Below are positions 29,701 through 51,669 of a DNA stretch of 64,000 bases, one piece after another. Under the pieces are notes generated by a model that saw only the letters and a list, made by a program, of their open reading frames with translations, did not search any database and was not told where the DNA came from. The position numbers and the translations under genes were made by a program. This DNA comes from Ectocarpus siliculosus (taxonomy: Eukaryota > Sar > Phaeophyceae > Ectocarpales > Ectocarpaceae): the NCBI GenBank assembly GCA_000310025.1, contig FN649737.1:3680378-3744377 (forward strand), in the 5' to 3' direction. Position 1 is the stretch's first letter. Every line of letters starts with the position of its first letter.

Positions 29701-32107
29701 GAGGTCAAGTTGATCTTGTGCTCGTGCATTTTCCCGGTCTCCCCAACGTATCCTGCTCTCCCCTGACCTGTATGCACTTCAGACAAGGAACAGGCCGCGG
29801 CTGCTCGGGAGCTTGCTGAGGAGGAATGGAGGGCTAAGGCAGAGGAGAGGGACGGACAGATCGAGCGCCTTGAGGGAAGGCTGTTGGAGGCGGAACGAGC
29901 ACAGGGCGAGGCCGAGGACAAACTGGAACAGGTAACCCTAACCCTAACCCTAGCCCTAACCCTAGGTACGCTTGTTGGACTTGCGAAGACATATACACGC
30001 GTTTCGCATTGGCATTTGCGTAGTTTGTACTGAGATTTTTGCCGAACGCACTGTGTTCAATTCAATGTAGCCTGCCACAACCATGGATGGCGGCGTCAGA
30101 TGTGAATGAATCATTTTCTTCCGGCCTTGTCACCGGACGTTTAAGGTAAAGCGCTGTGATTGACGGAATGGATCAACACGGTAGGGTGGATTGTTCCAGC
30201 CAATGCAGCAGGACACGGAGTACCCGAGTATTTCACAGGAGGCGAATTTCCGTCATGTTCGTACCGCTCGAAAAACGTTTCGTGGGTTTTCTCCGTACAC
30301 TTTTTTCGGATGGAGAACCATTACAGGGCTCCCGTGGCTCGGCTTGTCCGTGTCAGCCTTAAGGATAGCCAGTTTTTGTTGGTGTTGATTTGAAGACTGT
30401 TTTATAACAATATTGCTTTTCGTTTGTCTATGCGCACGAAGAAAAATTGCGTGGAGCATTGAGAGTTTTGCTCGTGATCGTGAACTCTTTTCCCTTCGTC
30501 CAACATCTTTTTCCTGCTGGGAAAGCGATGTCGTCCAAGCATTAACGGCGGTTTCCTTGTGTGATCTTGAGCAGAGAGAATATGTGAATGTCGTTGCTCA
30601 TCCTGCAGGTTTCCTCAGAGGCATGTCTCGCCAGGGAGCGGGTGGACCAGGTGTTGGAGGAGCTAGAAGACGCCAAGGAGGGGATGCAGAGGAGTGACTC
30701 CAGGGCGCAAGAGCTGCAAAGGCGGCACTCCGAAGGGCGGTGAGTACTGTCAGGCCGGCCAGTCTCGTCCGCTCTCTTACCAAGGCATGGTAGCCGGGCC
30801 AAGGGCTGTGTTAGGATGGCGGCGAGGGTCCGGGCTACGCGTGCAGTGTCCCCTACCGGAAGGCTAGCAAGCAATTTCGGACAGGGAAACCACGAAGGTC
30901 GCGAGACAGGCGTGAGGGCAAGGGTGAAATGTGGCATGGCAAAGAGTGAAATACAGGTGGTAGGGCAAGACTGAAGTTTGACATGGGAAATAATGAATCA
31001 GGTAGGGCAGTGGAAGTACAGGTGGTAGGGCAAGAGTGAAATTTGGCATGGGAAGAGTGAATCACAGGTGGTAGTGGTGGTTCCAATTCGGTCCGTGGGC
31101 AGATTTCATTGCATGTTTGTTGTTCATGTTACTCTGGTGGTGGGTTTGCCTGGCGGTATCGTAACCGGGCGGCTTTTAGCGAGCGGTGTTTTGCTTTCAC
31201 GCGCAGGCGCCGGCGCTCGCGGGCTTTTTCCGACCTTTTTTTATTTACTTCGGCTGACATTTTGACGCGGTTACCATTGACGCATTTTCGGTATGACGCC
31301 AGCTGGGTTTTACCGCACGTCTGACCCCTGGTCTTTACCAAGGCATCTGGATGATCGTTACTTGTTGCATGATTTGTTGGTTTTGTCGTTGTTTCGAAAG
31401 GGCCGGGGTGGAGGCGGCATCCCGAGGAATGAAGGAGCTCAGGCGAGAGCTCAACCGGCTAGAGGTGAGCAGGATCGTGCAAGGGGTTGTTGGACATCGT
31501 CATGCGTGGCACGCTGCTTCCGTTCCAAATGGGTTAATGCATTTGTCTTCATCACCTATCTCGTGGCTAATTTTATAGTGGGCTGATGAGGTGTAAGGGA
31601 GATTTGTTCTCGATCTGTTTTTAGATACTCTTACTAACGGAGGCGCTGGTCTTGTTACTTTTTTCTTTAGACTGAAGATGGCCGAGTTTCGCATTTTCCA
31701 TGAGGTTCAGTAGTCAGTTGCGCGTTTGTTGACTGCTGTGTCTAGCGTTTTCGTTTGTTGTGGTGCCGGCGTATCAAACTCCAACATGGCGACTACTTCG
31801 CAGGAACACTCGGAAGGGCTTTCTTCTCGCCTACGGCAGCGCGATCAGGAACTAGCGGAGGCGGCCGCCCTCATGACAGAAACGCAGCGGGACTTGACCG
31901 CGCTCAGAAACAGATCAAAGGAGATGGAACAGGTAACTTCTGACTCCGGGGTGCGTTCTCGATAATTGAGCCGTTCGACTCATTAGCGGCCTGGTGCCAG
32001 ACAGTACCAGAAGAAAGGCTTTTTTTAATAAGGACGTTGAGCTTTTTACACTCTATTACGGCCATTAGAAGGTACTGAGTGGAGACCGGAACGGTTTTAA
32101 TGTGAAG

Positions 32108-32153
<46 letters not shown>

Positions 32154-35100
32154 CGACAACAAAATTGTCTTATGTGATTTTCCGTCACATTGGGCCGCTC
32201 GTTAAACTGGAAGGTCAATGAACTCAAGATACAAGTTTTATGCTGTGTTGGTCTTTTAGACCACTGCAGCTTAGTATTTCACGGTGGTCCAGTGCTTGTG
32301 CTCCCACATCGATGTGTTGAAGATTGGAGCAGCCGCTATGATATGAATATCATGAACACAAGCAACGGTGACAACAGCAATATGAGTTGGTTTACGCATA
32401 CGTGTGGTCACTGTTTGAACACCCACGCAAGTTCTTGTTTCACTTGGTGTCCTTACTTCGATGATGTTCCCATCGCTTTCGCTCTCGATTGTGTTAACGG
32501 AAGGTGTCGGAGCGGCTAGAGGCTGCTGAGGCTGCCGCCACGCTGCTCAAAGAAGAACTCACGGAGACTAGGCAAGCCGTCTCGTGGAGGGAGGAGGAGC
32601 TGGCCAAGATGAGGAAGGCTAACGCCGATTCGGAGGTGCGACGGTCACGGCTGAAGTGATTTCTGCCGCAAGAGGGTTTCAAACCATGCCGTGGATTTCC
32701 TGTGATATTGGAAGGGGATACTCGCCGGCACGAAACGTAGATAGCGGTGAAGACATGGAACATTTAGATACGAATTGACCGGCATAATGTCCATGGGCTA
32801 TCTTGCGCCTACCTATGGGAACAACCGTTCTCCCTAGGTGTCTCAGTGTGTGTGTGCGCTTGCAGGCTTATAGTCGGTGATCACAGAATAACCTGCTCAG
32901 TATTGAGGCTCGGGTACTGTGCGCAGGGTACAGGGTTGAGCAACCCAATCGGCTTCGCGTTTATTTTGTTTTCTTTCGAATTGCTTCATTATTTCTTCGG
33001 TTTCTAGGCTACGTGTTGGGGAGAGAGACGCACGAAACGCTCATCGTCTCTCCGGCCGCGTTAGCTGCAAAGGCCGGCGTCAACTCTTACAAATCCATCT
33101 CTCTCCCCACAAATACTAGCCGGGGGACTACGACTGCAAACGCAGGAGTCCCAAAACTGACCAAGTCCTCAAATGGTACACACCATTCTACAACACCTGA
33201 CTAGATACCGAATATTCCCGAACTTATGCCCCCACCTTCGAAAGAAAAGGGATGGGAGGGCGGGATTTTCTAAACTGCCGCCGCTACTGCGTTAGGCGGC
33301 TGCTGCTGTCCTTCCGTTGCTTCACGCGCTCTGTAGCTGTCACACGTTACCCGACTTTGCTACAGCCCCTGCGTGGACTCGATCACGGAATGACACCCCC
33401 AACTATAGACTAATAATTCCAAACACCGTGACCCTGGGTTTCCGGTAGAAAATGAAGCCAAATTCTAATTCGACTGTTACAAAATAAACACCAGCTTTAT
33501 TCTATCTGCTTCGACGAACAAACCTTCCTTTTATTTTGTTTTCTTTCGAATTGCTTCATTATTTCTTCGGTTTCTAGGCTACGTGTTGGGGAGAGAGACG
33601 CACGAAACGCTCATCGTCTCTCCGGCCGCGTTAGCTGCAAAGGCCGGCGTCAACTCTTACAAATCCATCTCTCTCCCCACAAATACTAGCCGGGGGACTA
33701 CGACTGCAAACGCAGGAGTCCCAAAACTGACCAAGTCCTCAAATGGTACACACCATTCTACAACACCCACATCGAGGTCAGTTTCTGGACGACTACCGAA
33801 TAACTCAACTATCCGTTCCCCCAGACGGTCCCCTCCCCCGGCTGTCTCGATACGATCCTACTGCCGTCTGTAAGTTTCCGTGACACTCGCCGCGAATCCT
33901 CTACATTGTTTAGCGCGTACGGCTTGTATGCATCCGACCTCCACTTCCCTTCTCTCTGAATCACTCGTTCTGCGATGTCTCCGCCCGATGCAAGAGCCGT
34001 CGCGCCTCCAATTCGCAACGAGTGCAACGCGTACTCCTGGGGGTTACGCCCCGACTTCGCTACCACTTCTCTGAGTGCACGGAGGGCAGCAGTATACCTC
34101 ACTACTCTCACTGCTCTTCCACTGCGGTACGAAGCCAACGGTGCGGAGTCAGGGAACGTCGCATGACACGATAACAGCTCCACCACAAGAGCCACCGCGC
34201 CGCCGCGTGCTCTCACACCTGACTGCGGTCCGGTGACTTCGTCTCGCGTACGAACCCGTATGTTTCCTTTCTGCTCTTGATCGGCCTTGTGCCCTCTAAA
34301 CCTCATTTCGACACGGTCTGCTCTACGATAGTGACTAAAGACTAATTGCGTCTCGCCAGCAAACAATGCTACGTCCGCCCTCGTAAGACAGTGTGCCTCA
34401 TGCACCCTGCCCGCATCATTCGCGAACACCTCATCAGACCGTGTGATAAAGAGATAGGACAAGCACAGACACAGCCACATCACTCTGCCCCCTTCCCCCC
34501 AGTTCTGGCTTGCGCTTTCCCCGTCCAGCAGCATACGCCAAGACACAGGCAGGCGCACACGGCGTACCGTCCCCACAGCCACGTGGTTCCTCGCAATCCC
34601 CCTTAGCGCACATTTCAACATCGGAGACGACAAGTCTAGCTCGACAGAAGCTTCCAGCCTATGAAAATGTTGTACAGCCGTGAGTTTTCCGGATATTGTA
34701 CTCGCTAGATTACCCTCAGACTCGAAACACCAGGCTACGAAGTCTATCAACTCCCACACATGAAGGTCCCCGGCACGTTGCCCTAGGAACTTGGGCTTCT
34801 CCGTCAGCCTGCGAAACGTGCACCAAGAGTTGAAGCCTGACGTGTAAGTCCTTCTAGACGAAGACGCAACTGAGTGCTCGACGAAGCTGCATGCCAAGAC
34901 GTCGGTAACAAAGTCCCGTCCTGCCTGTCCCAGGTCCTGAACCTGCTGATAGCCCTGGAGCCAACCTCGTGTAGACCGGCGTGCTGCCGTTCGATTTAGC
35001 GGCAGGTGCGCTGCCATCCGAGGTAGGCCCCCCCGCTACGCGGGAGAGCCCGCACCCCTATTTGTCTTTCCCGTGGGTGAAGAAGCCAGCGGCCTTGGGT

Positions 35101-38100
35101 CTCGCGCCGCCCTCGCCAGCGGCGCGCGCCTCTCCTCCGCGCCCTCCCCCGTTGCCGTGGCCAACGCCGCGCGCGCCGGTTGCCGGAGTTTCGGACGCTC
35201 CGCGCCTAGCGTGGGAAGGGTTCTGGGCGTGGATGTGTGGGCAGTTACGATCATGGCAACCGGACGACGAGTTGAAGGCGAAGCAGTAACCACGAGCGTG
35301 TCGAGCGATGCCGCCACTTTCTCTGTCACCAGGACGCCTTTGCGAAGCAAGGATTGCCACTCCATCTGCGACAGTTTTGAAACTTGCCGGAGGCCGCCCC
35401 AGGATGAGCCACGCTTTTACCCGGCGGAGGTCCCCCCACATCCGCGCTCTATCCTTTGCCGTAGCCTTAGCCGCCTCGGCGCTGGGTGTAGCGGGGGCCC
35501 GAGAGGCCGATGGTGGGGCGGTTGTGCCCACCAGTTGCACCCCCCCCCGGAAGGCCAGGTCCTGCTGCTTGGGTGGCGATCAGGTCGTCGATCGTTGCTT
35601 GAAGCTGCTGGCGATCGCCGGCAGCCTCATCGCGCTTCCGCTGCAGCTCCTCCCTCAGGCCGTCCACCAGCCCGCGGAGAGAAGCGAGCTCAGTCTCATC
35701 AGCGGGGGGGTCGCCGCGGGTGCCTGTCCCTGGCGCTCGCGAGGAGGATACCGCTCGACGCCTCGCGGGAGTACGTGATCCGCTGCGCGTCGAGGGGCGA
35801 GCCGTCGAGCTCGCCACCGATCGCGCGGTAGACCTCCTCGTGCGTGGTGTCGAAGGTGTCGCCGCCCGACCTCGCCCTGCTTGCCCAGCCGCTGCCCTGC
35901 CGCTCCGCGTGGAGGCCCGTGTCGGCATCTGGTCGCGGTTGGAGTCGTATAAGCAGCGGACCGGCGGCAGGCGGCGGGCGAGCGTCAGGGCGGCGTTGCG
36001 GGAACACTTCTTTTCCTCTTCATCGTGGGCGTAGTCGATCGCGCGCCTGGATCTGCAGTTAGAATGGTCTACAAATCCTATCTTCGGGCGAAACTATCTG
36101 ACGTGGGTTTTCGTCGGGCCCAGAACGACGCGTTGTTATATCGCGAGCTCGCGTTAGTTCGTTCTCGACGCCTGTGGATTGAATGGAGTGATTATTGCTG
36201 CTGACGCTACGGTCACCGGACGTCGACCAATCCCGAATATTTCTCTCTTTGGAACACTAGCGATGGTTTCTCTTCTTTTTTTTTTATATGTATATTTTCT
36301 TGGATTCGGTGAACCCCGGTTCGCCATCGGCACGGGTGCTTCCACTCATTGGCGCGTCCCGTGCTGATACGTGTTTTTTTTTTTTTCGATGCGTTGGATA
36401 CGGTGAACTCCACTTGCCAACAGCGCGGGTGCTTCCACTCATTGGCGCGTCCCTCGCTGAAACTGACAACACATATGCAGCACGGGTGCTTCCACTCATT
36501 GGCGCGTCCCGTGCTGATACGTGTTTTTTTTTTTTTCGATGCGTTGGATACGGTGAACTCCACTTGCCAACAGCGCGGGTGCTTCCACTCATTGGCGCGT
36601 CCCTCGCTGAAACTGACAACACATTTGCAGCACGGGTGCTTCCACTCATTGGCGCGTCCCTTGCTGAAACTGACAACACATATGAGCACGGGTGCTTCCA
36701 CTCATTGGCGCGTCCCGTACTGATACGTGTATGACTTCGTTTTCGATGCGTGGAGATCGGTTAATTCTACTCGCCAACAGCACGGGTGCGTCCACTCATT
36801 GGCGCGTCCCGTGCAGATACGTGTACGGCGTTTTTNNNNNNNNNNNNNNNNNNNNNNNNNNNNNNNNNNNNNNNNNNNNNNNNNNNNNNNNNNNNNNNNN
36901 NNNNNNNNNNNNNNNNNNNNNNNNNNNNNNNNNNNCCGAATATTTCTCTCTTTGGAACACTAGCGATGGTTTCTCTTCTTTTTTTTTTATATGTATATTT
37001 TCTTGGATTCGGTGAACCCCGGTTCGCCATCGGCACGGGTGCTTCCACTCATTGGCGCGTCCCGTGCTGATACGTGTTTTTTTTTTTTTCGATGCGTTGG
37101 ATACGGTGAACTCCACTTGCCAACAGCGCGGGTGCTTCCACTCATTGGCGCGTCCCTCGCTGAAACTGACAACACATATGCAGCACGGGTGCTTCCACTC
37201 ATTGGCGCGTCCCGTGCTGATACGTGTTTTTTTTTTTTTCGATGCGTTGGATACGGTGAACTCCACTTGCCAACAGCGCGGGTGCTTCCACTCATTGGCG
37301 CGTCCCTCGCTGAAACTGACAACACATTTGCAGCACGGGTGCTTCCACTCATTGGCGCGTCCCTTGCTGAAACTGACAACACATATGAGCACGGGTGCTT
37401 CCACTCATTGGCGCGTCCCGTACTGATACGTGTATGACTTCGTTTTCGATGCGTGGAGATCGGTTAATTCTACTCGCCAACAGCACGGGTGCGTCCACTC
37501 ATTGGCGCGTCCCGTGCTGATACGTGTACGGCGTTTTTGTTCTTTCTTTTTGAGATCGGTTAACTCTACTCGCCAACAGCACTCATTGGCGCGTCCCTTG
37601 CTGAAACTGACAACACATATGCAGCACGGGTGCTTCCACTCATTGGCGCGTCCCGTACTGATACGTGTACGACTTCGTTTTCGATGCGTGGAGATCGGTT
37701 AATTCTACTCGCCAACAGCACGGGTGCGTCCACTCATTGGCGCGTCCCGTGCTGATACGTGTACGGCGTTTTGTTCTTTCTTTTTGAGATCGGTTAACTC
37801 TACTCGCCAACAGCACGAGTGCTTCCACTCGTTGGCGCGTCCCGTGCTGAGGCTGACAACACATATGCAGCACGGGTGCTTCCACTCATTGGCGCGTCCC
37901 GTACTGATGCATGATTTGTGGTATTTCCTACCGCTGCGTTGAATTCGGTTAACTCTACTCGCCAACAGCGCGGGTGCTTCCACTCATTGGCGCGTCCCGT
38001 GCTGATACATGTACGGCGTTTTGTTCTTTCTTTTTGAGATCGGTTAACTCTACTCACCAACAGCACGAGTGCTTCCACTCATTGGCGCGTCCCGTGCTGA

Positions 38101-41100
38101 GGCTGACATCACATATGCAGCACGGGTGCTTCCACTCATTGGCGCGTCCCGTACTGATGCATGATTTGTGGTATTTTTCTACCGCTGCGTTGGATTCGGT
38201 TAACTCTACTCGCCAACAGCGCGGGTGCTTCCACTCATTGGCGCATCCCGTGCTGATACATGTATGACTTCGTGTTTCGTTGCGTTGAGATCGGTTAACT
38301 TCCACTCGCCAACAGCACGGACGAGTGCTTCCACTATTGGCGCGTCCCGTGCTGGTGCGTGTCCTTGTTTTTTTTTTTTCATTGAGATCACTTCCGCATA
38401 GACAATCCTACGGCAGGTTGACGAGTTTTTGGCATGCATCAATTGCTGTCCGGGCGTTTTTGGTCGCTTAATCGTCGATGGACGTGACGTATTCTTATAG
38501 AAGGTTTGTGTCACAGCGGAATTAAATTTGACGTGATGCCCCTCGAGACCGTGATGCACTCACATGGACCGCTACCTGACGTTCCTCGCGAGTTCGAACC
38601 TCGCGTGTCACTTTCACCTCCCCCCCCTATTTTTTTCTCATCTTCTTTTTCCTTATGCATACAGCACGTAGTTCGCTGTCTCGTTTTTTTTTCTCGTCTT
38701 CTTTGTTTTTCAGTCTTTTTCTTTGAGTCTTTCTCTCGCATGCATGTGTTTTTGCTTTTATCCGTTCCCGTGAATGCTGTTGAATGCACTTTCCGATTAC
38801 GTATGCGGCCGCTTTGTATGCCATGGGACTTGTCGATACCATCAGTGGGGACTTGTCAATACCATCCGTGGAGACGATTGCTTACGTGAGTGGGCATATT
38901 ATCGTCGATTCCTTCAGCTATATGCCCCTCTGTGCGCGGCACAGACAAGATTGTACCGGCAAGTAGTCCCTAGTAAGCCGGGGGAAACAGAAAACAAGGC
39001 ACCTGCCTCATGTGCATACTCGTGACAGCATCATGCCCTACTGCCGCGGGTCGATTGGTTATGTCCGATGGCGCAGGGTTCCTCCACCCCGTGCAGTACA
39101 ATGGCTGCTATCAACCGCGACAAGTCAGCGTGCGACCATACAACAGGCCCCGCTCTTTCTTTCTTGCCGTTGAATTTTTTTCTTCAGAGAGAGTACGTCT
39201 CGGTTGGGACGAACCGCATTTTTTTTCTTCAGCGAGAGTACGTCTCGGTTGGGATGAACCGCATCCCATGTTTGGGAAGGGACCTATCTGAGCGGCGCGG
39301 CGAGCGAGACTGCGGTGGCTTGCCGCCGCTTATCTTACTGCACCCTCCCCCCTCGTGCTAAATGCACGCAGCGATGAGGTCACAAGAGTAGCGGGACGCG
39401 AATAGGAACACGGCCGACACGATGGATGTTGGACACGAGTACACACCTTTATATGGAGAGTCGCGTGCTGGTCACTTCCCCAATGCTTGCGCCGTGTCCC
39501 GTCCCGTCCTTTTCTAAACTGCCGCCGCTACTGCGTTAGGCGGCTGCTGCTGTCCTTCCGTTGCTTCACGCGCTCTGTAGCTGTCACACGTTACCCGACT
39601 TTGCTACAGCCCCTGCGTGGACTCGATCACGGAATGACACCCCCAACTATAGACTAATAATTCCAAACACCGTGACCCTGGGTTTCCGGTAGAAAATGAA
39701 GCCAAATTCTAATTCGACTGTTACAAAATAAACACCAGTTTATTCTATCTGCTTCGACGAACAAACCTTCCTTTAATTCTGACAAAGGGCTGGCTTGCCC
39801 TGCTGGCTGTGTCTAGGACGAACGACTACCACATGAGAGGGTTAGAACAGAGGGCGCTCAAGTCTAGGACACCTGAACCCGAAACGACTCCCTCTGCGGG
39901 CCCACAATATCTCACTGGTCACTTGAGGTCCCCCGAGAGCCGTTGCGACCGTTTCACCTACAGTCCCATAACGGTCAAGCCCACAGTACGTATCTATGTA
40001 TGCAGCACGCGTGCTATGTTGCTACGCTGGCAATGCTGTCCTGCTGCACTGTGCACCGACGACTAATTTCTACTTAAATGCTTCACGAGTCTCGACACCG
40101 CCAGCGAGCCAATTCTGGCGGCGTTGCCACGTACTGTAGCCATGCCCGGACAACCGCCTCCCTGGCGTTGTCCGAAACGGTCCTCAAGCCATGAGATGTT
40201 GTTCGTCGCGCGCTGCGGCGCGTCCATTTGTCTTCAGCGGGTTCCATCGGTTGCGGCATGCCGGATATTTGATCCTGGAGTAGTCTGAGCAATCAGTTGC
40301 GATACACACGGCAGCGGTAATCGCAGAAAGTTGTTCGTTGTGTCGTATGATGCGCACTCTACTCCATCTTTAGTGGCGGCATGCGTAATATGAAAGATAC
40401 CGTAATGATATCCGAACCTCCTCGCCTTGGCAGGATCGGCTACGGCAGTGCGCGGAGGAGCTGCAAGGAGCCCTGCTCGACCTGAGGGCGAGAGACTCAG
40501 AGCTAGACGGCGTTAAGGAAGAAGCCTCGGCCCTGTCCAGCAGGATGGATGGCATCCAAGAGTCAGCCCGCAGGGCTAGGTCAGAGGCTGTCGAGTGGAA
40601 GGCCCTAGCCGAGAGGTACACCTTGTGCCAATGTGTCTGTCGTATATATATCTTTTTGTTTCTGTATGCCAACGTCCATGTCCACAGCAATGGTTCCACC
40701 CGGATTTTGGGGGGCGGGGGGGGGCGACCGAAGTCCCTGGAGGCTCTGGAGACCACATCGAACCCACGTTTTCGCGCAATCATGAGGGGCATGGACGAAC
40801 CCGTGTTAGGCAAAATGGAATGAACCGTGGAACGAAAATGAAATGAGCATGGAATGGAACACAGGGTATATCATGGAATGGAACACGTAATGCCATGATA
40901 TATAGCACGCAACGAAAATGTGGATTGACGCAGGGCCGAGAGCCGTTTGGAGGAGAGCGATAGGCTCAGGCGCTCGGCACAGGAGCAGCGGTCTCAGTCT
41001 GACCAGATCGACCGGAAGAACCGGGCCGAGATGGCCAGGCTCGAAGATGCCAAGAAGACCCTCGAACAGGAAAGGAGGGCGTTTGGCGAAGAGAGTGCAA

Positions 41101-44100
41101 GGGTAGCGGAGAAGGAAGCCGAAGCGAGAAGCATGGCAAAGTCCATGGACAAGACTCGGAGGTGCGACTGGCTTGTTTATTGTGTGTGGTTGGTTTCCGT
41201 GCCTTGTGTTTTGTTTTTTCTCCTGCTGCAGTTCGTCTTCTGCCTTCTTCTGGTCTCACGGATTTGGTAAATGGCAACAGCGGCGACTGCAGCAACACCA
41301 TTGACATCAATACAAACGTACAAAAGACAGCTACAGCAGTGGCCTGGCTTCCAGGTAGATCATTCCGCTGTCCACGGGAGGCATCGCATGAGGTGTTTGT
41401 TCATTCAGCTAGGCGCCAAGCCACCTTTACGATTTAAACCGACGTTTCAAATTCCTTGCGAAACTCGTCAGAAAGAAGCGCTGTAGCTCTACCCCAGCGG
41501 CACCCGCGCTCGCAACGCCTTGCCCGGGCAGCCTGGAGCACGCCTTGAACCCAACTTGCACTGCACCCCGGCAATACGTGTCCACCCAAGCTCTTGCGAG
41601 TCATTCTCGCCTCCCTAGCTTATTTCCATATCGGGTGTGTGCGCGTCCTTTCCTTCACCGGGTGCTTGACGTGTACAATTGTGGTTGGGAACGTCTAGGC
41701 GGTTAACGGAGCGGGAAGAGGAGTTGTCCATCCGTGATGAGGCGTTATCGGCAAGGGAGGAGGCGGCGAGAAGGGCCACGGAGGAAGCGCAAGGCGTTCG
41801 CAAAGAGATCGAAAGGCAAGGACCTTGCCACTTCCGTGGCACCGTAGCGGCGAGTTGTTATAGTAAAGCGTGCGCGTGAACAGAAGGTCGTCACTTGCCA
41901 AGTTACAAAAAGTTGAGTTTCAACAACTAGGGTTCCTCGTATGGAACGGCGAGCAGCGCAAAGAGAACCTTTGAAGCTGCACAAGATAAGTTTCGGATAT
42001 CGTCAAGAGGTCGTGTTGCTTGGCCTAGCAATGAGTGTCAATGCCAATGCTACAGCCAACATCCGATCGAGGAGACCGGAAGGCTCACGACAACGCTCGC
42101 TTCGAATTGGTCGCACCTCCTTCTTTCGAGCGTGGCGAGTTGTACTAGCCTTGTCGTCGCCGACGGTCAGCGTGCTCTGTTCGCCCGCAAGTGTTTGGTT
42201 GACTCTAGCGGTCAGAGTGACGGGGCACACAGACGTCAAGACCCCTTGCCCCTCATATTGTCTTGACGTGCCTTGCTACCCCTACCCCCCCCCTCACCTT
42301 GTCGACAAGACTAGTGCAGCTGTTAGTTTGTGGAGAGTCGTGTTTCCCCTGTCAAATGAATCTTCTACGCACCCCTTGTCGGACCAACTGTTCCCGATTT
42401 CCAGCCTTCGCGAGATTCTTTTCGCTCAAGAGCGAGAGGTGACGACCAAGGCCAAGTCCTTGACGGCCAGGGAGCAGCAGCTCGCTCAGGCCGAGAAACA
42501 GATCGTCGCGAAGGAGGAGAGGGTTTCGAAAAAAGAGGCGGGGGTCTCGAACAAGGAGATGGACGTGTCCGAGAAGGAGAGGCGGGTGTTCGAGAAGCAA
42601 CAGGCGTTGTCCTGCAGGGAGGCGAGCGTTTCGGAGGCGGAGGGTAGGGTTTCCGCAGAGGCAAGGAGGCTTTCTGACCTGTCCAAGGACTTGACGCGGA
42701 AAAAAGAGGAGGCCGACGAGCGCGAGAAGAGGTACGGTGGGGCGAGAAGAGGTACTGTGGGCGCTTTTGGATTGTCTTCGGTTCGCGGCGGTATCGTTAG
42801 GGTTTAGTGTGAAGTACGATTTGATACGGCGTTGTGCAGTTTATGGTTTGTCTCTCTTCTGTGAAGTGGAACAAGAAAAGGGTGGACGCGAGGGCAACAA
42901 GAAGAACTGCTAAATGTTCGCGGCTTTCCCATGCGAATAAGTAGTACGGTCGACGTTGTTAATCGAGGGGCCGGTGTGGCAGGGGTTTGTGGTTGAGCAA
43001 TGCGTTAGAACAAGAGTGATTCTACAGCTTATTGTGAGTCCGAGGGGCCGACTATACAATCGCTAGGATATGTATTGTTTTTTCTTTTTCGAACAGCATT
43101 GATAACAAATCAGACACGACGGGTCAACCTGATTCACATAGGGGCACTGTTCACCGCTCACGGTCCTCAAAGGGCTGACGGCACGTGGTGATTGTCGGCG
43201 GTAACGCGAGCACAGTGACAAATGCGCCATTGCCAGAAGCTCGAAAAGGGAAGAAGGGGGGGCATGTCTTCTGTTGTACTTGAACGTTTGCTCCCACCAG
43301 GGTTTCGACCCTTCGGCCTTGACCTTGGGTAAGATTTGGCGCTGTGATTGCATCCGCGAAGCTACACCCGGTGGAGTCATAGTGATGTGCTTCTTGAGCC
43401 CTGAGGTACGTGTTGTTTTCTCGGCTGCAACTTCTACCGCACGTCCTCGATAGTATTGTCGGAAATGGGCCTGATATATTGTTCGAACTAACTTAGTAGT
43501 GGGATGTGCGCTGCGGGCGGCCGGATGCTCGATGGTGGGAAGGTTTAACGCTGCAGCGGAGAAGCTTACCCAAGACGCTGCTCGTCTGGAGTCGGAGCTG
43601 GAGGCAGCCCAGGTGACACTTGATCGAGTCAGGCGGCACGGACGGTAGCACGTACGGGTACAGCGGACACGAAAAACACACGGTGCCTTGTGGACCGTGC
43701 GTACGTCTGTAACGCCTTACACAATCTCCTTGTACTTCACAACTGTAGGCGAGTCCCGCCGACTTCACACGTAGTCCCATGTTTTTTTTCTTCATGCCGC
43801 CTTTAGCATCATTGGCCCGTATTGTTTAACTTGAAGTTCTGACTTGGCGGGCCGTGGTGCAACATCTCGATGTCGGGGCATAATTGGAACACCTTTGTGG
43901 TCGTCTTGAGGCACTTTCTCATCCTGAACTAGGAAAACATAAACATAGGATGAACTTTTTTGTTTACCCTCAACGAGGCAAACACAGGGTGTTGTATGTG
44001 ACAATTGGGATTGGATACCATAGCTTCCCCCCTACTCTACCGACGGACTGTCGAAGTTCAAGTATCCAAGTTAAACGTTCAGTGGTGTGATTGGATCTTG

Positions 44101-46107: not shown

Positions 46108-49100
46108 GAGATTTTGTCCGAAGGCAGCGGTTCTCCCCGAAAATGCTACCATACCATTTATTTGGTACACCCGAAGGACAAGTCAGTTTGACCCGGTGTC
46201 GGGGGCCTTTGAGAATGCAGTGCATTTAAGAATGCAGTGCGGACATTTGATATTCAATCACCCAGTGCAGTAAGGGGGAAGGCAAAGGCGAGCAATAGCT
46301 TCCAGGATTGGTTCGTCAAACAGGGGACCGGCAGAAAAGACTTGGATCTGTCCGTAGTTACGTTGGAATTCACGATTTGTATGTAACGGTATGTTTGTGT
46401 ATATTGCTACTATGTGGTGTGTCTGGTGTCCCATGACTATACGTTTTGTTTCGCGAGAACTCTAAGAGGTGGTGACTACCAGAGGAGAGTTCAGAAGGAG
46501 TTCGTCGGTGCCAATAGGCTTGTGCTCAATTTAGCAACACGGTGCAGTCTATTCCCTCACCCGCATGGAGTCGTTATTGCCATATTTTCTGTTGTCATCA
46601 ACGTTGTCTACGATGTTGTCGTTGATGCTGTGTTTGGTGTTGTCGTTGATTTTGTCTTTGATGCCTTCCTTCATCTCGTCACTGATTCTTTGTTTGGTGT
46701 GTCCGTGAAGCTGTCCTTGATGTTGTCTGTGGTGTTACTTTGATGTTGTCTTTGGTGTTGTCCTGAATACTATAGACCGCGGAGGCGGAGTCTTTGATGC
46801 GAAGGGCGAGGGAAAGAGAGCGTCAGGGCGCAGAGCAAGACCGTCGAAGAGAGAGCGACAGGTGCGGGCAGCAACAGGGATTACATATTTTTTGCTACAC
46901 GACGGGTGCTGCTGTGGAGCACGTGCAGACAATTTTTTTTCTGTCTTGCGGCCAATGTCGCTTATTCCTCCGACGTGTTTGCAACGCGAGGATGCAGAAG
47001 AATTATGGTACATGTAAAGCCTAAGACCCTTACCCTGTCTCTATGGCCGCGAATTGGAATTGTTTTGGCAGACGGGCGGTGGAACGTGAGCGGCAGGCGC
47101 TGTCTTTGCAAAAGGCAGCGCTCGAGAAAGAGGCCGGAGCTCTGCAGCATCAAGTGGCCGCCCTCTTGGAGCAAAGGTAACAAGCGGGGCAGTCGCATTT
47201 CTTTTTATACGGACATGGGTTAAAGTCGATGCCATGCATGCTAGAGGTTGTTGACCCCTACCACTACCGCATCTCTTCCATAAGTCCGGACGGATGTAGC
47301 CGACGCGGCGAACCGAAAGGCACAAGCGTGTTCCAACGTGGCGAGGCCTAGGAACGATCTTCGGCTGAGCTCACCCGGTGGACTGGCACATGTACCCCTG
47401 CCGGTTCAACGCTGACCCCATGTCTGTTCAAATGTTTAATCCCCACCATGTGGTTTTTATCCCACCTTGATGATGGCAGAACCGTGGCGCAGAACGCTCT
47501 CGGAAGCAACAACAGCAATAGCAGCGCCAACGCTCTTTTCCAGGAGGCCGAGAACCGCATGCGACAGGCCGAGTTCCGCCACGAAAGGGCCGAACAACGA
47601 GAGGCCGCCGCCGCACAGCTTGAAGCCGCATTGAGGATTCGCGGCGCGGAGCTGTCAACTCGGGAAGAGGCAATATCTGCGGCGGCGGAGCTTTCTCTGG
47701 CGGCCTCTCAGAAACAAGCATCGTCGTTGTCTGTGCGAAACAAGGGGGCCACGCGAAGATCGCCTGCCACCACTGTGGGCAAGCAACAGCAAGCACCACC
47801 TCCGGCGGACGATTTTTCTCTGGCAGTTTCAGAAGGGCAGGGATGGGCGGTTCCCGGCTCGCAGTCGCTCGCGCTCGGCTCGTCCATCCGCGAAGCCTCC
47901 GCGTCGTCTTACCACGGCGGCGGCGGCGTCAGCTGGGGTGGTGCTGGTACCGGCGATGGACCCGGCAAGAACCGGGAAGCCAACACAGGGCTGTCCGGTG
48001 TGCGCTTGCAAGGCGGGTCGCGCGCCGGCGTGGACGTGGAAACGCGAGAGCGGCAGCTCGAGGAGTGGTCTAACGCTCTAGCCGAGCAAGCAAGCGCCAT
48101 GAGGGAGCAGGCGCTGAGGCTGGAGACTGCCTACGACCGGCTCAGGGAGAGAGAGGCCCAGCCGTCGTTCGAGCACCACGAGTCGGAAAGGCACCGCGGT
48201 GGGGGTGGTGGGGAGGCTGATAAGAATGACGCCGCTGACGAATCCCAGAGCATCACGTTGCAAACCGGGATGCACCACGAGCAGCGGCGCGTTGGAACGG
48301 ATCCGTCTCAGGCTCGAGCCGCGACGACTCCCGCTGTCGCCGGTAGCGCCGTTGGCAGCACTAGGGATGCCGCCAGCGAGAGCCAGCAGCTGCAGCAGAG
48401 CCGACACCTAGAGCAGGAGACTGTCCGACTGGCTGAGAAGGCCAGGGAGCTGGATGCCGAGAGACATCGCCTCAAGCTGGCGGCCGAGTCCGCCGAGAAG
48501 GAGCACGCCCGGGCACAAGCGGAGCGACAAGCCGCCTCGGACGCGACTAGAGACGCGGCGACCCTGAGGGTCGCGTTGGAGCGGGAGAAAACCCGGCTGG
48601 ACGCCGAGAAAGGGGGACTGGCGGCGGAGAGGAGCCTGCTGGCAGCCGAAAGGGGAAGGCTTGCGACGGAACGGTCGCGTACTCGGAGAGAGGACGAGGC
48701 GGTCGCTCGTATGGGCTCAGCAGGTTTCCCGGGAGATGTGGAGGGGGGGAAAAACGACGAGAGTCAAAGCGCGGGTGTTTCGGGGGTCGAGTCTCAGGCC
48801 GCTGTCGCGGCCAGTGCTGCCGGGTTCGGAGAACGACCGGCCGGTTTAACAAGCACGCACGATAACGTTGGTTCCGCGGAAGCCGGCCACAACGCGTTGA
48901 GCACGCCGGTTGCAACCACGGGTACGACCATGGCGGCGGGGAGTCACCCGACGTCCGCCGGGGTGGCGGAAAGGCAGGGTCGTGCTGACCCAGCAAGTAT
49001 GGGGCAAGTTATTTCCACCGAGGGTGGTAGCGGTGCTGCTGCTGCTGCAGAGGAGACGAAGGCTTTCTCGCCGCGTCCACCAAGGACAGAGGTGCCGCTT

Positions 49101-51669
49101 GACCACCGGATAGAGCCCGCTGCCCCCATGGTCCAAGAAGCGCCGGAGACGCCGGTGGCCCGGATGGAGCAATCCGCACAACCTACAACCCCAGCCGGAC
49201 GCCGACTGGGGTCGGAATCGGTCAGCGTATCGGATCTCGCACGAGCGGTTTCGGCTGCGCCAGGAGACCAATCCTCGCTGCGCTCCGCACTACCCGAACC
49301 CGAGGCTCTGAACGGGGACGATGATTCGGCCGTCAGCAGGGCACAGGAGACCCCTGAGGTGTTGGACAGGAACGGCTTGTCCCCTCGCGTTCCTCAGCGT
49401 CGACGAGGCGGCGACGCGGAGCCCCCAAGGCCGACTCGGCGAAGCAGTGGTCGTGGCCGAGGCAGCAGCGACGCCCGGCGTGGTACGAGCGCTCCGACGG
49501 TGGAGAGCCTACGGCGACGACTCCAAGGAGGCGAAGGGGGGCGATGGGGGGCGGGTGAACCCCGCGGGGGCTCCTCTTCCGACGAAGATTCGTCCCCTGG
49601 TGCCGCCAAGCCAATAAGCCGGAGAGCCAGCGGGGCAGCAGCAACAATAGAAGCAGACTCAACAGCGGTGGCAGCAGCAGCAGCAGCAACAGCAGCAACA
49701 GCAGGGGGCCGATCACCAATCAGCAGCCCCTCCCTCTCCTCCCTGGGGTCTCCTCCATTGGCTGGAACCGGCAGAGGAGGCCGGTTGGGCCAGGCCCACC
49801 GGCCGGTCCCCGCAGACTCGTTCCTCGCCCGGCTCCACGCGAGGCTGGCCGGAGCGGACCACACCCTCCGGCAGTCGCTCGGCAGGCGAGAAGCCCTGCT
49901 GAGTAGGTTCGGGACGGACGGTAGCAGCAGCGTGGCCCCCACGAGCGAGGGGGAAGACACGTCCGACCAGAACGGCCGCTCTGTGGACGCCTCGCCCGAG
50001 ACTACAGCCTCGTCTTCTTGCTCGCCGCAGGACGGGGTCGGTCGTGGCGCCGCGGCGGCGGGGCATGCCAGGAGCGGTAGCGACAGTAGCATCGTCAGGG
50101 GCGACCTCGGGCTCGGCCTGGAAGCATCCCCTGGGACGGATGCAAAAGGGGGTCGTTTCGGGTTCACGGACGGAGGAGGAGGTGGTGGAGGAGGAGGAGG
50201 AGNNNNNNNNNNNNNNNNNNNNNNNNNNNNNNNNNNNNNNNNNNNNNNNNNNNNNNNNNNNNNNNNNNNNNNNNNNNNNNNNNNNNNNNNNNNNNNNNNC
50301 TGCTCTAGGTGTCGGCTCTTGCTCCGGCTGCTGGCTCTCGCTAGAGTGGTGGTGGTGGTGGAGGAGGAGGAGGAGTGGGAAGAACACCGCCCCGTAAGGT
50401 AGACTCTCGGAGAGGGGACGAGACGAGAAAGCAGTCCCGCCTGGCGCCGCCAATCACGGTGCGCTCTCGGGGATCTAACCCGGTACGACAAAACGCTTCG
50501 CAGGCGTCATCAACGGCCGCACCTGACAATACTTTGCCCGTAGCAGCCGCAGCAACAGCAGGACCACCCTCCGCACAAGCAGCTCGTGGCGGGGTTAGAA
50601 GAACAGCTGTTGCTCGTGCAAGCGGGTACGGGCGGGCGGCGGGCAGCGACACGGACGATACCGAGGCGGAAAAGGAAAACCTCAGGGAGCTCATGCTGGC
50701 TCTGGGCGCTGTAGATGTTCGCGACGGTGACGGCGATGCGAGTGCGGAAGACGACGAGGGCGGGCGAAGACACGGTGTTGGGGACGGTGTAGAGGCGAGA
50801 GATGAGGCTGGCAATGTTTCCGCAGGTCGTGGGGATGTGGTCAGCGTTTCTGATGGATACGACGGCGACCATGTGATAGCGGCTGCAACGGGCGAAGCTG
50901 ACGCAGGAGGTGGTAACACCCTCATGTCGTCAGTGAGGGCGCAGAACGAAGACATCTCGTCTCGCCTGCAGGACATGTCACTACAGGTCAGTCCACACAA
51001 TGTTCCTATGACAACTTTCTTCTTGTTCTTGCGTCCATTTTCTTGGTGCCGTTACCTGCACTTTGTCCTACGGTATGTTACCTGGCTTCACGAGTGGGGA
51101 GGTTCGATCCGGAGTGGTGTAGGAGGGCTCTCCTGTGATGCATACCTTCGTCCTGAACGCAGGAGTTGTCGAGCAATGTATCCCCTGACGTACAAGCTGT
51201 GAATATACTTGGTACGAAAACGTATGTCCCCGACCAAATTTGACTTAGTCACGACCTACGTAGCCGCCCGACGTTGGACAAGGTTGCCCGCTGCCCCGTC
51301 GGGCGGCCGGCTGCTGTAGGCCAGAGTCAGACGGGGCTCAGAGCAAAGCAACCTCTGAAGTACGCGTCAAAGCTCGGGGAAGATGATCGTCATCACAGAA
51401 ATCGCTGATAGTTCACCGAACGACCGTGTACTCGCAGCCAAATCGACCTATGTTGAAATGTGTTCGGTGGCGGTTGCTGTTGAGAAGCACGATGACCACT
51501 AGACCATTAGTCAGCGCTGACTATTTACTCTTGTTGTGGATGTGCTTCGCTTTGGATGTTGTTGTGGCCCATTAAGCAAACGCCTTGCCTCGACCATTCT
51601 AAACAACAGGAAGCGTTGGGCCTGTCATCATCGGCTTCGTCTCCGGCGTCCGCGGCACCAGAAGGCTGA
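4017..51669 (+). CDS. Giant coiled-coil protein gene, 52 visible exons, about 3,900 aa
   Basis: Fifty-two exons join without a frame break from ATG 4017 to TGA 51667-51669, apart from the assembly gap at 50203-50299. Coordinates are given in the exon-block entries. The start is the first in-frame ATG after a stop at 3921 and sits in a CCCATGG context. About 2,500 residues are Glu/Arg/Lys/Ala/Leu-rich with heptad spacing, so a very long rod is expected. The N-terminus is Ala/Ser/Gly-rich and the C-terminal 900 or so residues are mostly disordered. There is no signal peptide, membrane segment or catalytic motif. I do not recognise the family. Centriolar, basal-body or cytoskeletal coiled-coil scaffolds have similar composition, but composition alone does not assign a role. 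Introns are mostly phase 0 or phase 2; phase 2 junctions almost always split an Arg codon. One intron carries a 6.8-kb mobile element. Confidence 0.85.
4582..4745 (+). repeat. Intron 1 minisatellite beginning in the 5' splice site
   Basis: Three units of 54-56 bases. The first contains the real donor (cgcccaggtgagtga then cagatggtgatttgg). The next two contain cgctcaggtgtggga and cgctcaggttgtggg followed by the same cagatg(g/t)tgatttgg block. The repeats therefore copy exon end plus donor. Confidence 0.75.
6121..6162. repeat. (TCTG)n/(TC)n microsatellite in intron 2
   Basis: Five TCTG units pass into a TC run. Intronic, no coding content. Confidence 0.9.
7502..7670 (+). repeat. Intron 4 tandem duplication next to the donor
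   Basis: Two diverged units of about 78 bases: gagcggt...gacggtagaca...gttggaaccgttcg and gagcggtgtagacggcagaca...cttggaacggttcgg. The first unit starts at the donor (aaggtgagagcgg) and the second follows tagtaggagcgg. Confidence 0.6.
8890..9033. repeat. Intron 5 minisatellite
   Basis: About five units of 26-28 bases around cacctacccttcactccgcg, running up to the acceptor of exon 6. Confidence 0.85.
11470..12355 (+). repeat. Intron 8 minisatellite carrying 3' splice-site copies
   Basis: Roughly ten diverged units of about 85 bases. Each has a variant of tgaatcaatcgattgaat, then gtcttgatctgcaac, then a pyrimidine-rich end such as gtatctcaggag. The last unit supplies the acceptor of exon 9 (gtatctcag/GAGGAG). 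Earlier copies with the same AG occur near 11695, 11848, 12014 and 12205. Confidence 0.8.
14712..14775. repeat. TTG/CTG trinucleotide repeat in intron 12
   Basis: A run of TTG then CTG then TTG/TTA triplets starts five bases after the exon 12 donor. The Cys-, Leu- or Ala-rich ORFs across it are repeat translations. Confidence 0.9.
15527..15790. repeat. Intron 14 diverged tandem duplication
   Basis: Two copies of about 130 bases share aaatgagaacaacgc(g/t)gt, a ttctg(g/t)...gag block and tgtccagcagg/atccagcagg. Confidence 0.55.
16790..17040 (+). repeat. Intron 16 minisatellite beginning in the 5' splice site
   Basis: About six units of 35-45 bases. The real donor lies in ggttggaggtgagtcgtccc; later units contain ctggagatgagtcatct, agtggtgagccgtcccctc and ctggagatgattagtcccc. 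Confidence 0.75.
17425..18200. repeat. Two adjoining minisatellites in intron 17
   Basis: The first, about 17425-17770, has units near 60 bases around tcctagcgcaaca and gcgagcctcaattt. The second, about 17980-18190, has four units near 58 bases around tacatgagagtttctgctt. A non-repeat spacer lies between them. Confidence 0.8.
18660..18835. repeat. Intron 18 minisatellite
   Basis: Three units of about 55 bases around gctacgcttcttggttccgg and gagtagctggt. Confidence 0.85.
20735..21060. repeat. Intron 22 diverged repeat
   Basis: About two and a half units near 100 bases, sharing ggtcgtg(c/t)tcattgc, aagctc(t/a)gta, gaaac and ctcctggtcgtagcg-like blocks. Confidence 0.5.
25190..25420 (+). repeat. 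Tandem copies of the exon 28 end and its donor
   Basis: Exon 28 ends in gcaacttcgaggacctgcag then cgacag/gcacgt. Two diverged copies follow near 25270 and 25354 (ttcgaggacctttatagcgc; tttgaggacctgtgtagcgc). The unit of about 80 bases spans exon end, donor and the first intron bases. Confidence 0.75.
26601..26640 (+). repeat. GTACG/GTGTG run starting at the exon 30 donor
   Basis: The donor GTACG is itself the first unit of a run gtacggtacggtacggtatg that passes into gtgtg repeats. Confidence 0.8.
27190..27390 (+). repeat. Intron 31 minisatellite beginning in the 5' splice site
   Basis: Four units of about 53 bases. The real donor is gagaggtattgcatgacgtc. Later units have ataagtttgcatgacgtcat, gagaggtttgcatgacgtca and taggtctgcatggcgccat. 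Confidence 0.8.
29932..29966 (+). repeat. Interstitial telomere-type (CCCTAA)n tract at the exon 35 donor
   Basis: After exon 35 (ending CAG at 29931) the intron starts gtaaccctaaccctaaccct and continues through one variant unit (ccctag) to 29966. The donor GTAACC is formed by the first unit. Repeats of this type are the telomere sequence in many algae. Confidence 0.9.
30895..31075. repeat. Intron 36 minisatellite
   Basis: About four diverged units near 45 bases around gtagggcaagagtgaaat and ggcatgggaagagtga. Confidence 0.75.
32107..32162. repeat. (CAA)n microsatellite in intron 38
   Basis: About seventeen CAA triplets with one CGA interruption. The poly-Cys ORF on the other strand is a translation of this run. 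Confidence 0.95.
32960..33197 (-). repeat. Split direct repeat B2 (outer end of element)
   Basis: Matches 33530-33767 base for base over 238 bases at an offset of 570. Its outer edge starts tttattttg after the flank ggcttcgcg. The small ORF in it is duplicated with the repeat and is not evidence of a gene. Confidence 0.93.
33266..33531 (-). repeat. Split direct repeat A2
   Basis: Matches 39510-39774 apart from one base (caccagcttt versus caccagttt). It abuts B1 at the shared TTT near 33530. Confidence 0.93.
33530..33767 (-). repeat. Split direct repeat B1
   Basis: Identical to B2 at 32960-33197. It lies directly downstream of the recombinase stop in the element's orientation, as expected for this class. 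Confidence 0.93.
33809..35017 (-). CDS. Tyrosine recombinase (phage-integrase fold) of the mobile element
   Basis: A single uninterrupted ORF of 402 codons from ATG at 35017. The N-terminal part (about residues 40-140) has the SAM-like core-binding look (SSRRTYTSGFNSWCTF; ISGKLTAVQHFH). The catalytic set is visible: Arg193 in LFITRSDEVF, Lys244 in GHKADQEQKG, His332 and Arg335 in HSLRIGG, Trp359 in the GKW position where many members have His or Trp, and the likely nucleophile Tyr367 in AYKPY. The enzyme would join a circular copy to the genome through short core homology. It starts about 40 bases after the gag-like ORF ends, so the two may share a transcript. All key residues are present, so it could be active. 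DIRS-type recombinase fits the repeats better than Crypton. Confidence 0.9.
   Translation of the reverse strand: MAAHLPLNRTAARRSTRGWLQGYQQVQDLGQAGRDFVTDVLACSFVEHSVASSSRRTYTSGFNSWCTFRRLTEKPKFLGQRAGDLHVWELIDFVAWCFESEGNLASTISGKLTAVQHFHRLEASVELDLSSPMLKCALRGIARNHVAVGTVRRVRLPVSWRMLLDGESASQNWGEGGRVMWLCLCLSYLFITRSDEVFANDAGRVHEAHCLTRADVALFAGETQLVFSHYRRADRVEMRFRGHKADQEQKGNIRVRTRDEVTGPQSGVRARGGAVALVVELLSCHATFPDSAPLASYRSGRAVRVVRYTAALRALREVVAKSGRNPQEYALHSLRIGGATALASGGDIAERVIQREGKWRSDAYKPYALNNVEDSRRVSRKLTDGSRIVSRQPGEGTVWGNG
35058..35928 (-). pseudogene. gag-like ORF with CCCH zinc finger, frame broken at a G9 run
   Basis: The upstream part, 35928-35467, encodes an Arg/Ser/Thr-rich disordered segment followed by a short coil (ADETELASLRGLVDGLREEL). 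The downstream part, 35540-35058, is in another frame and encodes the finger CFAFNSSSGCHDRNCPHIH (C-x8-C-x4-C-x3-H) and a Gly/Arg-rich tail. The two frames overlap at a run of nine G on the coding strand (35540-35548); eight G would make one continuous ORF. It could be a mutation, a sequencing error or a slippery site. A nucleic-acid-binding gag is inferred from position and the finger; there is no sequence-specific match I can name. Confidence 0.6.
36325..38360. repeat. Minisatellite inside the mobile element, about two dozen units
   Basis: Core gcttccactcattggcgcgt flanked by cacgggt and cccgt(g/a)ctgatacgtg, with spacers of two or three alternating types (a T-run plus cgatgcgttgg..., or gaaactgacaacacatatg). 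Units are 45-100 bases. The ORFs with repeated HSLARPV or LPLIGAS peptides on plus and SGSTRA on minus are translations of this array, not genes. The array is artificially lengthened by the flanking duplication around the gap. Confidence 0.92.
36836..36935. other. Assembly gap (100 N) inside the minisatellite
   Basis: The 603 bases before the gap (36233-36835) and after it (36936-37538) are the same apart from one visible difference (gtgcagata versus gtgctgata). This looks like two contig ends that overlap but were not merged. Confidence 0.9.
39170..39265. repeat. Short direct repeat in the element's 5' region
   Basis: gagtacgtctcggttgggac and gagtacgtctcggttgggat occur about 50 bases apart, each flanked by ttttttttcttcag. 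It lies between A1 and the minisatellite. Nothing else is recognisable in 38400-39509. Confidence 0.8.
39510..39774 (-). repeat. Split direct repeat A1 (5' end of element)
   Basis: Copy of 33266-33531. The outer edge ends ccttccttt and the flank continues aattctgac, giving the TTT shared with the other junctions. Confidence 0.92.
42720..42762 (+). repeat. Tandem 21-base duplication of the exon 43 donor
   Basis: gcgagaagaggtacggtggg is followed directly by gcgagaagaggtactgtggg. Both copies carry an AGGTAC donor. The first is used here because its phase 2 end fits exon 44; use of the second would add seven codons in the same phase. Confidence 0.85.
44690..44746 (+). other. Candidate cassette exon duplicated from exon 45
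   Basis: gcatctgtag/GTGGGAAAAC opens a 57-base stretch (19 codons, phase 0 at both ends) that closes at ATGCAG/GTAGTC. It encodes KLEGEQQEL, almost the same as WLEGEQQEL in exon 45. It could be included or skipped without changing frame. It may instead be a decayed copy. Confidence 0.4.
46040..46107. repeat. (GA)n microsatellite in intron 47
   Basis: About 34 GA dinucleotides with one AA interruption, about 70 bases after the exon 47 donor. Confidence 0.95.
47480..51669 (+). other. Giant gene exons 50-52: last coils, disordered tail, stop
   Basis: Exon 50 starts at 47480 (A completing an Arg codon) and is open to the gap at 50203. It holds three shorter coils (about 47540-47740, 48035-48170 and 48370-48700) separated and followed by Ser/Gly/Pro/Arg-rich disordered sequence. 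A lone helical patch, DSFLARLHARLAGADHTLR, lies near 49818. After the gap, exon 51 is best read as 50345-50986 from the acceptor ctctcgctag: upstream stops at 50306 and 50342 close that frame, so an intron probably spans the gap. Exon 51 contains an acidic patch and ENLRELMLALGA. Exon 52 is 51610-51669, encoding 19 residues and TGA. Confidence 0.75.
50203..50299. other. Assembly gap (97 N) in a poly-Gly coding tract of the giant gene
   Basis: GGA/GGT triplets precede the gap (50173-50202), and GGT/GGA triplets recur after it from about 50345. The coding frame before the gap does not continue into exon 51 at the stated length, so either the length is wrong or an intron spans it. Confidence 0.9.

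Follow-up and report, generated by a model that had tools for sequence, protein, structure and literature searches.

A reverse transcriptase-less, split-repeat tyrosine recombinase element of Ectocarpus siliculosus is very probably a deletion derivative of a Ngaro-like retrotransposon in the same genome

Cryptons carry a tyrosine recombinase (YR) and no reverse transcriptase (RT), and are without gag and split repeats, and among the elements that have long terminal repeats (LTRs) and an integrase instead of a YR, deletion derivatives mobilised in trans are familiar (Dasheng/RIRE2, TR-GAG and BARE-2). For Ngaro/PAT-type YR retrotransposons an excerpt of PMC6681497 sets out a reverse-transcription model with annealing between repeat portions, which predicts near-identical copies of the terminal and internal repeats (A1/A2 and B1/B2) at insertion, and the same excerpt presents SIRE as a truncated, non-autonomous VIPER of Trypanosoma cruzi that corresponds to the A2-B2 region. 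Ectocarpus has 15 Ngaro and 5 PAT-like families according to an excerpt of PMC12477816, and the structural features used to class such elements are described as homoplastic in one from PMC4157794. Here we describe an element on the minus strand of a 64,000-nucleotide stretch of E. siliculosus DNA (contig FN649737.1, positions 3,680,378 to 3,744,377; below, the window) which has split direct repeats and an open YR frame and in which no RT was recognised. We put it at roughly nine chances in ten that this is a non-autonomous deletion derivative of a Ngaro-like YR retrotransposon resident in the same genome.

Read on the minus strand, the element consists of A1, about 3.4 kb of noncoding DNA, a gag remnant, the YR frame, B1, A2, a 68-bp spacer and B2, with the following features (L031 and L032 are RT-bearing relatives and L033 an RT-less one, all treated below):

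32960..39772, minus strand: whole RT-less element, with ends TTTATTTTG (32960) and CCTTCCT (39772)
39510..39772, minus strand: A1 terminal repeat, by repeat comparison within the window
35467..36093, minus strand: 5′ gag remnant frame, 208 aa from stop to stop and 153 aa from an MPTRAST start
35058..35579, minus strand: 3′ gag remnant with a Cys/His zinc-type motif, C-x8-C-x4-C-x3-H (by eye)
35294 (point), minus strand: site of a missing 510-bp gag core that is present in L031, L032 and L033
34941..34946, minus strand: RT/RNase H deletion junction with 6-bp microhomology (GCAGGT on the coding strand), by alignment with L031
33809..35035, minus strand: YR frame, open, 408 aa from stop to stop, first in-frame ATG at 35017
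33530..33767, minus strand: B1 internal repeat, by repeat comparison
33523..33538, minus strand: internal A2/B1 (circle-type) junction, CCTTCCT joined to TTTATTTTG in plus-strand letters, an exact fusion of both outer ends
33266..33529, minus strand: A2 internal repeat, aligned to A1 without mismatch (263 of 263 bases) and with a single 1-base gap
32960..33197, minus strand: B2 terminal repeat, 238 bp identical to B1

Because the outer ends exactly equal both halves of the internal junction, the true ends are 32960 and 39772. A first-pass annotation of the window had proposed the order A1-gag-YR-B1A2-B2 without RT/RNase H over 32960..39774; the order is borne out by the repeats, the open YR frame and the absent RT match, and the lower coordinate stands while the upper one moves to 39772. 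The split repeats are far beyond chance, and the repeat set recurs elsewhere in the genome. No RT or RNase H look-alike was seen by eye among the frames of at least 90 aa in 32000-41000, and blastn finds no counterpart in the window copy for the 2-kb RT/RNase H stretch of L032.

The RT-bearing relatives come from the same genome, a 189-Mb assembly of 492 contigs, searched throughout this work. The model of the EsV-1-7 motif, which belongs to a brown-algal family, has at least 150 matches there (the best 150 of 880 candidates) and none in 14 prokaryotic control genomes, which would point to a brown alga or something close to one as host. The relatives were traced by comparing YR and gag matches: five places have gag at a distance of about 2.35 kb from the YR and not next to it, and two of these were examined in full. 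L032 comprises A1, gag (564 aa), RT/RNase H (768 aa), YR (392 aa), B1A2 and B2, with all three frames open; L031 (gag 542 aa, RT/RNase H 690 aa, YR 392 aa) is otherwise alike and is without B2. L032 is 97-98% identical to the window copy over its termini and YR. The window copy is without 2056 bp (RT/RNase H) that L031 has. On its left the joint lies close to where the RT frame of RT-bearing copies begins, and on its right it coincides with the place where their RNase H region ends. The first-pass annotation had offered two readings, an RT-deleted element moved in trans or a distinct element type, and had named related copies with RT/RNase H between gag and YR as the mark of a simple internal deletion. 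L031 and L032 are such copies, which makes the window copy a deletion derivative and leaves the distinct type without footing. The deletion part of the other reading holds, given relatives with the same termini and YR and a boundary placed to the base, and movement in trans is what the model discussed below would entail. RT of the same family (at least 92% aa identity, except for one 85% fragment beside a 94% one) is present at at least eight places, on C27, C74, C187, C79, C147, C156, C14 and C85 (among the best 64 of 491 candidates).

The deleted form predominates. A 37-nt pattern that spans the joint was matched at 83 places, fragments included (68 exact, 15 with one to three mismatches; reversed-pattern control, 0), and the pattern of the undeleted right boundary at 10 (control, 0), an excess of about 8 to 1. 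The 83 places omit older-clade copies such as L030 and L036-L040, which have a gap near the joint. In a 35-row alignment the joint is present in all 32 RT-less rows, including this older clade (L030, L036-L040 and L043), which is 6-9% from the window copy over the YR region. A YR tree of 22 of the 35 rows places the three RT-bearing rows in one clade (100/99) opposite the 19 RT-less rows. One deletion followed by amplification is the simplest account of this pattern and the one that appears to fit it best.

The gag gene of the first-pass annotation is present as a remnant and not as a gene, as its frame is broken, which had gone unseen, and its 510-bp core is missing; another 79 bp of L031 are absent from the window copy near 35167-35171. 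The frame that starts at MPTRAST is broken in 20 of 20 RT-less loci (L009-L028), ending after 90 aa in 17 and after 153 aa in three. The core is missing in five of six RT-less loci tested (L009, L011, L015, L028 and L030) and kept in L033, which shares the RT deletion, yet has a gag frame of 514 aa. With RT deleted and gag open, L033 is by this arrangement an intermediate. A 514-aa gag frame is also listed beside the joint at C11:1462361, and RT loss can therefore precede gag loss.

A DNA search with the whole element gave at least 22 places that match over at least 3 kb at the YR side (the best 22 of 427 candidates). The check for further copies by way of the B1A2 junction that the first-pass annotation had proposed likewise shows the repeats to recur, with the 502-bp A2/B1 block matched end to end at at least 41 places (among the 79 matches listed; best 40 of 418 candidates). 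B1, A2, B2, the gag remnant and YR are present in all 20 loci L009-L028, the window copy included, and a near-full A1 in 19 of them (L011 has only 102 nt). Ends and flanks were compared in 21 of the 25 loci L009-L033, omitting L011 (truncated A1), L030 (motif unmatched), L031 (no B2) and L033 (A1 not reached). These 21 share exact ends, no two have the same 12-nt flanks, and any apparent target duplication is 0-2 nt at best; with exact ends and different flanks, they are independent insertions. CCTTCCT is kept at the A1 end in every one, B1 equals B2 exactly in 19, and A1/A2 are free of mismatches in 17, in a comparison whose slices force one end gap in A.

The insertion sites can also be read. 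The flank that follows CCTTCCT is non-random, with T at the second position in 18 of 21 loci and at the third in 15, and over its first nine bases it agrees with TTTATTTTG, the B end of the element itself, at a mean of 5.0 of 9 positions; other 9-mers taken from these flanks average 2.2, and 0 of 20,000 resamples reached the observed value. The other flank has seven bases without clear preference and then an A-rich stretch, which matches the reverse complement best at a 7-nt gap, with 3.3 of 9 positions against 2.2, the highest value among the 14 offsets tried. CCTTCCT is 7 nt long, the same as the unconserved stretch. Together these features suggest that the insertion site is a YR site in which two inverted arms, one A-rich and one T-rich, surround a 7-nt spacer; target sites that resemble the B end are as expected for YR recombination. 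At one further place (G000:C12:1581870-1583246) two consecutive A2-B1 units lie 569 bp apart and are followed by a B copy, and the extra internal-repeat unit possibly arose from a circle or by template slippage.

As a deletion derivative the element would be transcribed, and its RNA packaged by Gag and copied by the RT/RNase H of RT-bearing copies. Since RT is absent and gag broken, both proteins must come from elsewhere if the reverse-transcription model holds, and the RT-bearing relatives would be the obvious source in trans. The B1A2 block would then template the joining of the ends into a circle, and a YR, its own or that of an RT-bearing copy, would recombine the circle junction with the target without target duplication. 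Each insertion would carry CCTTCCT next to A1 and leave 7 nt belonging to the target next to B2, and the internal A2/B1 copy would restore the CCTTCCT spacer every cycle.

All 20 loci L009-L028 have an open YR frame of 357 aa, counted from VEHSV, and among them there are 9 distinct YR-region sequences, with a mean identity of 99.9% within a group of 17. Substitutions were assigned to branches from codons uniform within groups only (3 RT-bearing, 3 young and 5 old of the 35 rows), and the data are sparse: the RT-bearing branch has 8 synonymous and 0 non-synonymous changes, the young RT-less branch 2 and 3, and the old RT-less stem 16 and 18, which is mild constraint (p=0.014 against neutral). 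RT-bearing (8/0) and RT-less branches together (18/21) differ at p=0.006 (Fisher). The YR thus seems to be tightly constrained in the RT-bearing branch and more weakly in the RT-less ones, so that its openness in RT-less copies may mainly reflect their youth. The recombinase, still intact in the first-pass annotation, is so as an open frame, with the qualification that its substitutions show this weaker constraint.

These data bear on the alternative that survives best, a self-standing DNA element whose YR excises and reinserts a circle in the manner of a Crypton, RT being no longer needed. Such an element would agree with the YR frame open in all the young loci, with the exact circle-type junction, B-end-like target sites and absence of target duplication, and with the surplus of RT-less joints, and the mild constraint on the old stem allows use of the element's own YR. 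We nevertheless consider it improbable. The sameness of B1 and B2 and of A1 and A2, and the unfailing CCTTCCT at the A1 end, are as predicted if reverse transcription rebuilds the ends; DNA movement by YR predicts rebuilt ends and a rise in copy number less directly; and RT-bearing relatives exist in the genome, with the YR less constrained in the RT-less than in the RT-bearing branch. A related and similarly doubtful idea is that of a long-lived RT-less lineage, derived from one deletion, with clades 6-9% apart over the YR region, still amplifying and with its own YR open, which may have begun to spread in part by YR-driven DNA circles at degenerate two-arm sites. If true, it would mark a transition from a YR retrotransposon towards a DNA element like a Crypton.

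Far less credible is a distinct, ancestrally RT-less element type, later the source of Ngaro elements or merely resembling them. The lack of RT and the greater divergence of the older RT-less clade than of the RT-bearing copies would suit it, and it is refuted in practice by the joint, a microhomology scar between the RT frame start and the RNase H end; in other families of this genome too, RT/RNase H adjoins or overlaps the YR frame. Spread of the copies by segmental duplication or mis-assembly, which the duplicated flanks of an assembly gap in the window copy might bring to mind, is refuted in practice as well, because the flanks of all 21 clean-ended loci differ, starting exactly at the element ends.

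Several points weigh against derivation by deletion with help in trans as we present it. The 5′ noncoding region of L032 is just 86% identical to that of RT-less copies (compared with L009), while YR and termini are 98% identical; recombination or very fast change could be responsible, and our account does not explain it. There are few RT-bearing copies, several of them damaged or incomplete (L031 lacks B2 and has a shorter RT/RNase H frame, and stops or gaps occur elsewhere), so that their current activity is uncertain. Gag is kept in some RT-less copies, namely L033 and the place on C11, and the counted joint places include fragments. The YR tree is unrooted, and a single origin needs both the shared joint and a root at the RT-bearing branch. 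For the left arm of the insertion site the signal is weak. Finally, the supply of RT in trans is read from sequence.

The RT assignment of L031 and L032 calls for comment. The RT/RNase H frame matches RVT_1 at E 0.018-0.02 only, under the model's cut-off, and a PDB search with it found nothing at E<=1, so the assignment rests on position, on the YVDD and D/E/D residues, which we take to be those of RT and RNase H, respectively, and on conservation across families; these residues are invariant in three aligned families of the genome. PF00078 has at least 150 matches genome-wide (the best 150 of 1041 candidates) and did not point to the RT-bearing relative. Many more RT/RNase H matches occur genome-wide at 36-71% aa identity, and L044-L048 have YR-like frames downstream of such matches, broken in L044 and L048. 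One scan of viral_contigs gave no relative. L031 (G000:C27:2934500-2943500) is bounded by a 33-bp direct repeat (443-475 and 8607-8639) whose first bases overlap the element end; the 21 clean insertions lack a target duplication, and L031 may have arrived differently, such as by a long interspersed nuclear element (LINE)-type insertion.

The window frame is a predicted YR on the combined basis of invariant residues, a weak alignment to Cre, relatives with phage integrase matches, the architecture and the insertion sites. R199, K250, H338, R341, W365 and Y373, the catalytic residues expected of a YR, are invariant in six aligned YRs, down to 34% identity, and the YR profile aligns weakly to Cre over the HxxR-W-Y region (E 0.13-0.26; 11 of 12 among the matches listed are Cre). 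Two relatives, P0007 and P0009, have matches to the phage integrase family phrog_1 (7.7e-4 and 0.011, respectively); the window YR itself has no phrog_1 match. Against this identity, neither Pfam nor NCBIfam gives an integrase match at E<=1. Pfam gave no useful match to the window YR and gag frames, and PDB none at E<=10 with the window YR alone. PF00589 has one place listed genome-wide (29.5 bits), and since it is not among the YR matches of the family, that model misses this family. An AlphaFold model of the YR was poor (mean predicted local distance difference test score, pLDDT, 39) and was not used. A bL9 ribosomal protein that topped the YR profile list (E 0.085) was treated as a chance match, and a 1341-aa YR frame on C241, considered as an RT-YR fusion, proved to be mostly a run of N.

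Two further features lie in the noncoding part of the element:

36292..38383, minus strand: tandem repeats in the 5′ noncoding part (a 48-nt family, 15 copies of at least 60% identity), a region that RT-bearing L031 has too
36836..36935, no strand: assembly gap of 100 N, with flanks near-identical over 604 bp

The stretches 36233-36836 and 36936-37539 differ in two columns, one of which is the first N, and the 604-bp duplication is probably one of scaffolding; because of these duplicated flanks the true length of the element is uncertain by about 0.7 kb. Plus-strand, coiled-coil-like coding stretches flank the element (32520-32660, 40389-40823 and 40929-41270, by eye), which suggests an intronic position, antisense to a host gene. 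Elsewhere in the window, 48001-50000 has an unusual composition (GC 0.674, AT skew 0.245), with a 97-N gap nearby at 50203-50299.

Among known systems, the RT-bearing parent appears Ngaro-like by structure (split repeats, no methyltransferase found), an assignment made on architecture rather than on a reference phylogeny. Shared with Ngaro elements are the A1 ... B1A2-B2 split direct repeats, the internal repeats downstream of the YR and the lack of target duplication. The order gag, RT/RNase H, YR is found in L031 and L032, but not in the window copy, where RT/RNase H is absent and gag broken; without the full coding order the latter is a derivative and not a complete Ngaro-like member. The first-pass annotation was right to call the architecture PAT/Ngaro-type, and between the two the absence of room for a methyltransferase between RNase H and YR favours Ngaro. 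In L032 the RT/RNase H frame runs into the YR frame, and the methyltransferase domain of PAT-like elements was not found in this family; the Dam model PF05869 has no match in the genome, although its control matches E. coli only and it may not reach DIRS-type methyltransferases. The inverted terminal repeats and internal complementary region of DIRS1-like elements were not found in the window region either (no inverted repeat pair of at least 25 nt, seed 12, in 32000-41000). With Cryptons the element has a YR without RT in common, and it differs from them in its split repeats, gag remnant and RT-bearing relatives.

Among the open-licence papers that our literature searches listed, we found no family that keeps a YR and is without RT and gag. 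A non-autonomous split-repeat YR element is nevertheless already known, in SIRE from VIPER, and the window element is not a new class; as far as the excerpt of PMC6681497 goes, SIRE is likewise a non-autonomous form of a split-direct-repeat YR retrotransposon, from which the window element differs by keeping its YR frame open. What is noteworthy here is that the YR has been retained, that an intermediate can be seen, that the deletion joint outnumbers the undeleted boundary roughly 8 to 1 and that the insertion site can be read. The family offers a natural case for asking which proteins of a YR retrotransposon act in trans, and a testable recombination site of two arms and a 7-nt spacer restored by the internal repeat. 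With RT-bearing relative, intermediate and amplified product sharing one genome, the lack of RT in a split-repeat YR element need not signal a new class.

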